Shown one piece after another: positions 1,194 through 4,100 of a DNA stretch of 64,000 nucleotides. Numbering within the stretch: the stretch's first letter is position 1; the number at the start of each line of letters is the position of its first letter. This stretch comes from Xanthomonas sacchari (GTDB lineage: Bacteria; Pseudomonadota; Gammaproteobacteria; Xanthomonadales; Xanthomonadaceae). The stretch lies in contig NZ_CP132343.1 of assembly GCF_040529065.1 (NCBI RefSeq), positions 868,001-932,000 of the forward strand. Reading direction: 5' to 3'. The position numbers were made by a program, and so were the translations under genes. Below the pieces are notes generated by a model, which did no database searches, was not told where the DNA came from, and worked only from the letters and a program-made list of their open reading frames with translations.

Positions 1194-4100
1194 ATGATCG
1201 TCCTCGAGGGCGCTTCCGCCCTTTCGCCGTTCCGTCGCGCTCGGCTCGAAACCCGCCTGCAGTCCCTCGTTCCCGGCGTGCGCATCGCCGGTGCCTGGCA
1301 CGTCTACTTCATCGACGGCGACAACGCCGCGTCGCTCGACCTGGTCGCGGCGCGGCGCATCCTGCAGGCGCAGGACGCGCCGGCGCCGGCCGACGCGGAC
1401 ACCTGCTCGCGCTACGTGGTGCCGCGGCTGGGCACGCGCTCGCCGTGGTCGAGCAAGGCCACCGAACTGGTCCGCGGCGCCGGGCTGGCGATCCGCCGGG
1501 TCGAACGCGGCACCCGCCTGGACCTGGCCGGCTGGCCCGAGACGCCGGCCGACCAGGCCGCGCTGGCCAAGCTGCTGCACGATCCGATGACGCAGTCGCT
1601 GCTGGACGATGCCGCGCAGGCGCAGGCGCTGTTCCAGGCGCCGGCGCGCGGCGAGGTCGAGCGTATCCCGCTGGACCAGTTGGAAGCGGCCAATGCGCGC
1701 CTGGGCCTGGCCCTGGCCCAGGACGAGATCGACTACCTGCGCCAGCGCTTCGGCGAACTCGGCCGCGATCCGGCCGACGTGGAACTGATGATGTTCGCGC
1801 AGGCCAATTCCGAGCACTGCCGGCACAAGATCTTCAACGCCAGCTGGACCATCGACGGCAAGGAGCAGGACCGCTCGCTGTTCCGGATGATCAAGCACAC
1901 CCACCAGCAGACCCCGCAGCACACGCTCAGCGCGTACAGCGACAACGCGGCGGTGGTGGAAGGCCATCCGGCCGCGCGCTATCGCCCGGATCCGGCCAGC
2001 GGCGAGTACCGCAGCGAGGCGGTGACGCCGTCGGCGTTCTGCATCAAGGTCGAGACCCACAACCACCCGACCGCGATCGCGCCGTTCCCGGGCGCGTCCA
2101 CCGGCGCCGGCGGCGAGATTCGCGACGAGGGCGCCACCGGCCGCGGCGGCAAGCCCAAGGCCGGCCTGACCGGCTTCAGCGTCTCGCACCTGCGCATCCC
2201 CAGCCTGCCGCAGCCGTGGGAGGGCGCGCGTCCGCTCAACCCGCGCATGGCGCCGGCGCTGGAAATCATGCTGGACGGCCCGCTCGGCGGCGCCGCGTTC
2301 AACAACGAATTCGGCCGGCCCAACCTGCTCGGCTATTTCCGCAGCTTCGAGCTGCCGGAGACGCAGGACCTGACCCGCGCCTACGACAAGCCGATCATGC
2401 TGGCCGGCGGCCTGGGCGCGATCGACCGCGTGCAGGTGGAGAAGATCCCGCTGCAGCCCGGCGATGCGGTGATCGTGCTCGGCGGCCCGGCGATGCTGAT
2501 CGGCCTGGGCGGCGGCGCGGCCAGTTCGGTGGCCTCCGGCGACAGCGCCGAGGACCTGGATTTCGCCAGCGTGCAGCGCGACAACCCGGAGATGGAGCGG
2601 CGCGTGCAGGAGGTCATCGACCGCTGCGTGGCGCTGGGCACGGACAACCCGATCCGCTGGTTCCACGACGTCGGCGCTGGCGGCCTGTCCAACGCCATTC
2701 CCGAACTGCTGCACGATTCCAGCGTAGGCGGCCTCATCGACCTGGACCGCGTGCCCAGCGACGACCCCTCGCTGTCGCCGATGCAGCTGTGGTGCAACGA
2801 GTCGCAGGAGCGCTACGTGCTTGGCGTGCCGCAGGCGCGCCTGGCCGAATTCGCCGCGATCTGCGAGCGCGAGCGCTGCCCGTTTGCCGCTGTGGGTGTG
2901 GCGACCGCCGAGGAACGGCTCGTCGTGGGCTACGGGGTGCTGCGCACCGGGATTGGGGAGTCGGGATTGGGGATTGGCAACGGCGCAACGTCGGCCGGCT
3001 CCCTCGCGTCTCACGAATCCCCAATCCCGAATCCCGAATCCCCGCACCCCATCGATCTGCCCATGGACGTCCTCTTCGGCAAGCCGCCGAAGATGCATCG
3101 CGACACCCGGCAGCCGCCGGCGCCGCGCTGGCCGGAGCTGGACACCGATGCGCTGGACCTGCGCGAGGCCGGGCTGCGCGTGCTGGCCCATCCGACGGTG
3201 GCGGCGAAGAGTTTCCTGGTCACCATCGGCGATCGCAGCGTCGGCGGCCTGACCGCGCGCGAGCAGATGATCGGTCCCTGGCAGCTGCCGCTGGCCGATT
3301 GCGCGATCACCCTGGCCGGCTTCGACACCCACGCCGGCGAAGCGATGGCGATCGGCGAGCGCACCCCGCTGGCCCTGCTCGACGCCGCCGCGGCCGCGCG
3401 CATGGCGGTGGGCGAAGCCATCACCAACCTATGCGCGGCGCCGGTGCAGGCGCTGGACCAGGTCAAGCTGTCGGCGAACTGGATGGCCGCGGCCAACCAC
3501 GACGGCGAGGACGCGCGCCTGTACGCCGCGGTCAAGGCGGTGGGCATGGAGCTGTGCCCGCAACTGGACCTGAGCATCCCGGTGGGCAAGGACTCGCTGT
3601 CGATGCAGGCGCAATGGGGTGTGGCCGGGATTCGGGATTCGGGATTGGGGATTGGGGAGAGCGCTTCTGCGAATCCCGAATCCCCACTCCCCACTCCCGG
3701 CGCGAGCGCCACGCACAGAAGCGTCTCGCCCGTCTCCCTCATCGTCTCCGCCTTCGCGCCCGTCGCCGATGCGCGGGCGCAGTTGACGCCGTTGCTGGCG
3801 CGTGAGGCCGAGAGCGAGTTGTGGCTGATCGGGCTGGGCGGCGGCAAGCAGCGCCTGGGCGGTTCGGTGCTGGCACAGGTGCATGGCGACGGTGCGCTGC
3901 CGGCGTTCGGCGGCGCGGTGCCGGATTTGGACGATCCGCAGCGGCTGCGCGCGTTCTTCGAGCTGATCCGCGATGCGCGCGAGGCCGGCATGCTGCTGGC
4001 GTATCACGATCGCAGCGATGGCGGCGCGTTCGCCGCGCTGTGCGAGATGGCGTTCGCCTCGCGGCAGGGCCTGGACATCACCCTCGATGCCTGGGGCGAC

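Follow-up and report, generated by a model that had tools for sequence, protein, structure and literature searches.

Palindromic repeats translated in frame in two inter-domain linkers of PurL in Xanthomonas sacchari and other Lysobacteraceae

The purL locus and its two translated inserts

The window analysed here, a stretch of 64,000 nucleotides of the Xanthomonas sacchari genome, harbors purL, the gene for phosphoribosylformylglycinamidine synthase, which is conditionally, not strictly, essential. Two stretches of purL are built from tandem heptamers that form inverted arms around a loop, and both are translated as part of the enzyme (Table 1). As a sequence-only reading of this DNA had stated, the open purL frame runs uninterrupted through the arms and loop of insert 1, and the layout of this insert is that of an intergenic element near the other end of the window.

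Table 1. Coordinates (window numbering) of purL, its two inserts and the intergenic comparator
Feature	Coordinates	Strand	Remarks
purL, phosphoribosylformylglycinamidine synthase, 1346 aa	1194..5234	+	ATG at 1194 assumed as start
Insert 1, translated heptamer inverted element, residues 586-617	2949..3043	+	flanked by Pfam AIRS_C (best stretch) and the FGAR-AT PurM_N-like domain
Insert 1, G-rich arm, four heptamers (GGGATTG GGGAGTC GGGATTG GGGATTG)	2949..2976	+	
Insert 1, loop, starting GCAACGGCG and ending TCACG	2977..3015	+	fits the subterminal motifs of about half of the intergenic pairs
Insert 1, C-rich arm, four heptamers (AATCCCC AATCCCG AATCCCG AATCCCC)	3016..3043	+	complements the G-rich arm
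Insert 2, second translated heptamer inverted element, residues 812-836	3627..3699	+	directly C-terminal to the PurM_N-like domain
Intergenic copy of the same kind of element, GGGAATS units	about 62441..62530	.	strand not assigned; comparator of the sequence-only reading

In stop-to-stop numbering, the best AIRS_C stretch found by Pfam (a second one is also counted in PurL) covers residues 497-655 and insert 1 residues 661-692, while the PurM_N-like domain covers 748-885 and insert 2 887-906; the domain borders adjoin the inserts, hence both lie at domain ends. The alignment with Salmonella PurL (1t3t), in which the query numbering equals PurL numbering plus 6, is interrupted at insert 1 (query 582/622 vs chain 594/602) and at insert 2 (query 815/848 vs chain 794/801), and homology picks up again a few residues past insert 2. 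An AF2 model of PurL (779 residues, 43 alignment rows) was set aside as too poor (pLDDT 46.9).

As RNA, insert 1 folds with -58.7 kcal/mol (z -5.2), insert 2 with -47.2 kcal/mol (z -3.6) and the intergenic element (62438-62536) with -55.0 kcal/mol (z -6.4), and in each case 0 of 200 shuffles folded equally well. Two weak microRNA matches in Rfam, both far under their cut-offs, were taken as chance hairpins. Next to the gene, two heptamer arms face each other about 209 bp apart 5' of purL (window 900-1144), in the region expected to hold its promoter or leader, and a very long repetitive ORF rich in alanine, glycine and serine (window 6182-14392) adjoins purL, which we take to resemble a trimeric autotransporter adhesin.

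Related repeats in the genome and in other genes

The heptamer signature GGGATTSGGGATTSGGGA has 262 matches in the 4.96 Mb genome of X. sacchari and GGGAATSGGGAATSGGGA has 93, with 0 matches for the reversed control pattern in both cases. In the window and the sampled stretches of the genome, 32 distinct inverted heptamer pairs were found, purL pairs included. Just inside the arms, 15 of the 32 loops start with TTSGYNAV and 19 end with RCSAA, compared with 0 and 0 for the reversed loops, the motifs having been picked after the loops had been inspected; insert 1 carries both subterminal motifs and insert 2 the right one only. The inserts are GGGATTS/GGGAGTC arrays, which fit GGGANTN but contain no GGGAATC unit on the G strand, and orthologous PurL linkers of one other genome (G006) do contain GGGAATC. 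By unit, by inverted layout and, for insert 1, by the subterminal motifs, the inserts are akin to GGGAATC repeats, whose high-copy dispersal and convergent inverted pairs are also found in this genome. The hallmarks of REPs, namely a GTAG or CGTC tag at one end, a stem of 5-13 bp and a loop of 2-20 bp, are not those of the inserts, which end in CCGGGATT...AATCCC or CTCCCG and have arms of 28 bp; the loop of insert 1 is 39 bp long, and CGTC occurs in insert 1 inside this loop only.

From the dispersal we infer that the repeat is mobile, as the sequence-only reading had assumed. The RAYT domain Y1_Tnp (PF01797) showed no association with heptamer content, being found in 9 of 10 chosen heptamer-rich genomes and in 8 of 10 chosen heptamer-poor ones (0-1 matches). 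An unrelated palindrome, T3, which is encountered again below, lies nested in the loop of one heptamer pair of X. sacchari (L274, 1769-2030), and GTAGGAGCGGCTTCAGCCGCGA-like palindromes lie inside the loops of others (L018, L252, L263).

To look for the same units in further coding genes, 58 distinct heptamer sites were sampled in X. sacchari, from the window and from stretches reaching 2.93 of 4.96 Mb; at 36 of them an open frame runs through the site and extends 50 codons or more to either side. Only the two purL sites have Pfam domains above the cut-off on both sides in one frame among the 30 frames scanned, which were drawn from 43 distinct frames that run through a site with 60 aa or more to either side; the other 13 frames were short or were alternative frames at scanned sites, with L265, L015, L016 and L030 wholly unscanned, and frames without a domain may still be genes. 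A domain downstream only was found for a Mur ligase, a ribose 5-phosphate isomerase, a cytidylyltransferase-like protein, an amino-acid permease and an alpha/beta hydrolase.

For T3, 20 of the 30 sites of a T3-rich genome (G032) were sampled (19 fetched plus purL), and 13 site-spanning frames were scanned. Family matches on both sides were found in the E2 dihydrolipoyl acyltransferase (L319, 1041-2510, + strand), whose linker between the E3-binding and catalytic domains encodes the T3 palindrome SLPSPNGRGAEGEGTE..., while a glycosyl hydrolase 92 frame was matched downstream only. At least two T3 seeds are present in the E2 linkers of 4 of the 19 loci extracted (of 30), namely those of G032, G055, G066 and G021. 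T3 probably also lies within a molybdopterin oxidoreductase of G032, which is matched on both sides, with the upstream Pfam match under its cut-off. In that frame (L321, 2-2305, + strand), the T3 element precedes the Molydop_binding domain, and a second T3-like stretch was seen by eye near residues 25-65. PurL is hence a strong case of repeat-bearing linkers, not a unique one.

PurL linkers across the Lysobacteraceae

A PurL match was obtained in 144 of 149 family genomes searched; 135 among the matches listed were fetched (30 plus 105), and both linkers were extracted from 134 of these, with 80 named PurL loci. The locus left out (L161, genome G095) has a linker with GATTCCC units. In 24 genomes that belong to the same class but not to the family (25 of 29 loci extracted, one of the 25 belonging to a family member), linker 1 measures 9-13 aa; linker 2, whose end could be located in 21 of them, measures 8-13 aa, and neither holds a heptamer. 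This supports the view that the site of insert 1 is a short linker elsewhere, and it speaks against conservation of the segment at the protein level in bacteria lacking the repeat, which had been named as a refutation.

Within the family, linkers of at least 25 aa were found in 47 of 134 genomes for linker 1 and in 20 of 134 for linker 2. When a linker is classed as heptamer or T3 from two signature matches upward, linker 1 is of the heptamer class in 19 genomes, T3 in 13, otherwise at least 30 aa long in 13 and short in 89, and linker 2 belongs to the heptamer class in 19 genomes; of the rest, 1 is long and 114 are short. The site of residues 586-617, for which a survey of presence and absence had been proposed, is filled in some relatives and short or occupied by T3 in others. 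In the genera g1, g2 and g17, heptamers are present in both linkers in 12 of 12 sampled genomes. The best named relative is X. bonasiae. In Xanthomonas sp. GPE 39 (L067), with 91% identity to the PurL fragment of the window, the linkers are short and free of heptamers, and a short linker, for instance ATVGNIPADAPIDLP, is also seen in the named Stenotrophomonas rows.

At the same linkers, further members of the Lysobacteraceae have heptamers of the GGGACCC or GTGATTC kind, or T3. GGGACC-type units were found in PurL of X. melonis, X. maliensis, Xanthomonas sp. AmX2 and Luteimonas huabeiensis, and GTGATT-type units in Chiayiivirga flava, Pseudoxanthomonas sp. 3HH-4 and Lysobacter aestuarii. Within a single genus (g15), linker 2 ranges from an empty state of 12 aa (G015, G062) through a remnant (G090) and four G-arm units lacking a C arm (G138) to a full element (G116); linker 1 of these genomes bears T3 in G015, G090 and G138 and is short in the other two. 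On a FastTree phylogeny of the PurL core, linker 1 shows at least 10 state changes for heptamers and as many for T3, and linker 2 at least 9 for heptamers, counts that pool gains and losses with no direction assigned. Comparison by eye of empty and filled congeneric sites, whose flanks have diverged, revealed no clear target-site duplication, and an insertion event was not observed either.

Thirteen family genomes have a linker 1 of at least 30 aa with neither heptamers nor T3, some of them with the type 4 sequence (GPAQRAGRSDEPRGSAAQAG). Type 4 was rejected as a repeat family, being of low copy number (found in 12 of 24 chosen genomes, with no more than 11 copies), and such linkers indicate that long linkers can have other origins. 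Two further linkers 1 were recorded for their make-up: that of L128 and L195 (G007), 103 aa in total, has T3 sequence beside a heptamer C arm, and the longest one, 114 aa in L172 (G053), has repeated GPAPxGGDxDxQxGxxxH-like stretches beside a type-4 stretch.

The repeats are concentrated in the linkers. Across the 134 genomes, the heptamer signature has 198 matches in 18,312 bp of linker compared with 6 in the remaining 276,064 bp of fetched purL, and T3 seeds number 50 and 0, respectively. It is hardly conceivable, then, that GC-rich coding loops merely happen to be similar to the intergenic repeat, a reading that could appeal to the high GC background and to the single heptamer signature matches that also turn up in T3 linkers; it is refuted by the contrast in density, by the reversed control (0 vs 262) and by the z-scores of the folds.

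The content of the linkers also follows the content of the genome. PurL heptamers are present in 25 of 46 genomes with at least ten genome-wide heptamer 18-mers compared with 2 of 88 with fewer, the two exceptions being G054, whose GGGAACA units are uncounted by the pattern, and G007, which is 72% complete. Of 64 genomes with a T3 copy, 13 have T3 in PurL, compared with 0 of the 70 that lack a copy, all genome-wide counts including the PurL copies themselves. Rank tests of PurL content against genome content, which ignore kinship, gave p values of 6e-12 for heptamers and 6e-7 for T3. By unit type, GGGACC arrays number 64 and 105 in the two of 24 chosen genomes that have this type in PurL compared with 0-7 in the other 22; against such a link, GTGATT arrays occur not only in all 3 genomes with this type in PurL but also in 6 without it, among 20 chosen genomes. 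No heptamer was found in PurL of 11 genomes with at least 50 heptamer 18-mers, hence abundance alone is not sufficient.

The peptide encoded by the linkers is under relaxed constraint. Over close pairs, which are not independent of one another and some of which have arms out of register, the PurL core has a pN of 0.015 and a pS of 0.246 and the linkers have 0.290 and 0.399, so that pN/pS is about 0.73 in the linkers compared with 0.06 for the remainder of PurL. Some close pairs in which the arms have not turned over have a linker pN well below pS (e.g., 0.032 vs 0.158), and the linkers are relaxed, though not clearly free of constraint. The sequence-only reading had described insert 1 as a domesticated surface loop, which would imply that the loops were recruited and now act in PurL, be it in channelling, in partner binding or in stability. 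Such a recruitment would account for the presence of both inserts in all 12 sampled genomes of g1, g2 and g17 and for the close pairs with low pN, but we consider it unlikely, as the sequence, length and even repeat family of the linkers differ among relatives, GPE 39 has short heptamer-free linkers, and the 24 genomes outside the family manage with 8-13 aa. Since the insert is swapped for unrelated repeats or absent in relatives, and since linker pN/pS is about 0.73, tolerance fits the data better than recruitment does; of the terms used by the sequence-only reading, inserted has support and domesticated has none.

Arm agreement, stop codons and comparison with known repeats

The two arms of a PurL element change together. 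The unit type is equal in both arms in 45 of 47 distinct two-armed PurL elements, while permuted arms agreed in 16.3 on average and in 27 at most (5000 permutations), and the duplex of an element's own arms has -38.7 kcal/mol compared with -30.8 kcal/mol for permuted arms (0 of 5000 permutations). Among tree-independent pairs, 6 of 6 agree for linker 2 (AAT vs the rest, p 0.031) and, with few pairs, a mean of 3.2 of 4 agree for linker 1 with none opposite; tree pairs for GGGACC, likewise few, agree 3 of 3 in each linker. The arms switch unit type together, hence something keeps the translated copy palindromic, and arm-to-arm copying, replacement by another copy or selection for pairing would be candidates. 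One arm changed on a near-identical loop between L063 and L069 (linker 1), and both arms changed on a similar loop between L039 and L040 (linker 2). As a test of arm copying against replacement, loop identity gave a mixed result and its averages fail to separate the two, as mean loop identity when arms switch is not above that between the two linkers.

The same data bear on two further explanations. The heptamers could have arisen in place, grown by slippage from GC-rich low-complexity linker DNA with no insertion, which would be in keeping with the genome-wide length variation of heptamer arrays (Rehm et al., PMC4692102), the one-arm change between L063 and L069, and the one-armed heptamer linkers of G138, G040 and G072. 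We regard this as quite improbable, because slippage makes no second inverted array of the same unit type, as is found in 45 of 47 elements; moreover, subterminal motifs are shared with intergenic pairs (15 and 19 of 32, reversed 0, for motifs chosen post hoc), and the unrelated T3 palindrome in other genomes is left unexplained by slippage. Very improbable is a role of the nucleic acid itself, in which a hairpin or G-quadruplex in the purL message or DNA would regulate translation or replication and pairing would be selected. The strong RNA folds of both inserts, the lasting complementarity of the arms and the in vitro quadruplexes reported for the repeat (PMC4692102) speak for such a role, but 11 heptamer-rich relatives do without a heptamer in purL, Rehm et al. 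(PMC4692102) state that they found no regulatory role, GTGATT-type copies have lost the intact sense arm, and the agreement of the arms is equally expected from whole-copy arrival or arm-to-arm copying.

Reading frame leaves a visible mark on which units are present. Arrays of GGGATTS, GGGAATS and GGGACCS are stop-free in all frames of both strands, while GTGATTS arrays contain TGA in each sense-strand frame and are stop-free on the antisense strand. Sense runs of at least two intact GTGATTS units were found at 0 loci in the extracted linkers and antisense runs at 7 loci from about 5 organisms, two locus pairs seemingly coming from the same species; the other three units occur both ways (13 and 27, 17 and 16, and 9 and 7 loci per orientation). 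A degenerate sense arm is left in 3 GTGATT cases, and the antisense-only pattern is what would be left by translating an originally two-armed element. Whole elements are open in six frames in 22 of 48 cases compared with 3% of shuffles and 20% of GC-rich flanks, hence six-frame openness is special to a modest degree.

Taken together, we think it likely that resident palindromic repeats have repeatedly colonized tolerant inter-domain linkers of PurL in frame, mostly neutrally. Lysobacteraceae genomes carry dispersed palindromes, comprising two-armed heptamer elements of several unit types and the unrelated hairpin T3, and different families would have entered the two linkers repeatedly and in different lineages. 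Their persistence would be due to linkers that tolerate changes in size and make-up, and to the lack of stops in every frame of both strands of the common heptamer units; for GTGATTS, which bears stops in the sense strand, only the stop-free arm would survive. In X. sacchari, both linkers hold heptamer copies, common to all sampled genomes of its genus and of two related genera, and the linker peptide would be mostly tolerated spacer. A bolder version is put forward tentatively, as a possibility that we hold with less than even confidence: the linkers could be recurrent safe harbors, in which at least two unrelated palindrome families (four heptamer unit types, and T3) landed often in frame, copying of one arm from the other keeps the translated palindrome, so that DNA-level maintenance writes the linker, and the stop codon is the sole filter. 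The finding of other, unrelated repeats at the same joints in relatives suggests that selfish repeats persist within a gene at places that the protein leaves free for them. Scattered cases of intragenic palindromic repeats are already known, and PurL over 134 genomes amounts to a natural experiment with many events, which informs on which repeats enter, how the frame is kept and how palindromes are kept. Two questions become testable in this way: are such repeats still moving, and does selfish DNA in coding genes find its general refuge in inter-domain linkers?

The closest known system is the GGGAATC heptamer repeats of Xanthomonas, defined as at least two tandem GGGANTN units including at least one GGGAATC, which form quadruplexes in vitro, vary in array length genome-wide and form 70 convergent inverted pairs in Xcc and 75 in Xac (Rehm et al., 2015; PMC4692102). 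According to the same source, the repeats are mostly intergenic, 11% and 7% being at least partly intragenic, and no regulatory role was found for them. The PurL inserts belong with these repeats in unit family and inverted-pair layout, and differ in that about half of the pairs here have common subterminal motifs, in the additional GGGACC and GTGATT unit types, and in the family-wide occurrence in in-frame linkers, which the sections of PMC4692102 drawn on here do not describe; purL is absent from its main text, the supplements, where purL may be listed, lying outside this statement. GTAG/CGTC REPs, in turn, are translated within genes, with different REPs at about the same site of recB in X. 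campestris and X. oryzae, and their neutrality in flexible linkers or loops was proposed earlier (PMC3733652, whose main text, supplements apart, does not contain purL). Like intragenic REPs as that text presents them, the PurL inserts are translated palindromic repeats; unlike them, the X. sacchari inserts have no GTAG tag, no terminal CGTC and heptamer arms of about 28 bp, and the loop of insert 1 is longer than REP loops.

Rickettsia palindromic elements (RPE), which are described as measuring ~150 bp and as encoding a conserved peptide, lie in frame in metabolic genes (PMC10969869). The comparison with Rickettsia made by the sequence-only reading is apt as to the way of working, as both are dispersed palindromic DNA in frame in a metabolic gene, and does not extend to membership: going by the description of RPE in the part of that source cited here, the PurL inserts are set apart by peptides that differ with unit type and by unrelated families at the same two linkers of one enzyme. 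No report of PurL repeat inserts was found in titles and abstracts of a literature search, supplements being outside its scope. As far as these partly covered sources go, intragenic REPs, their neutrality in linkers and in-frame RPE were already known, and the PurL inserts are of a precedented kind; new here are the heptamer and T3 elements, their recurrence at two linkers of one enzyme, the co-change of the arms and a visible stop-codon filter.
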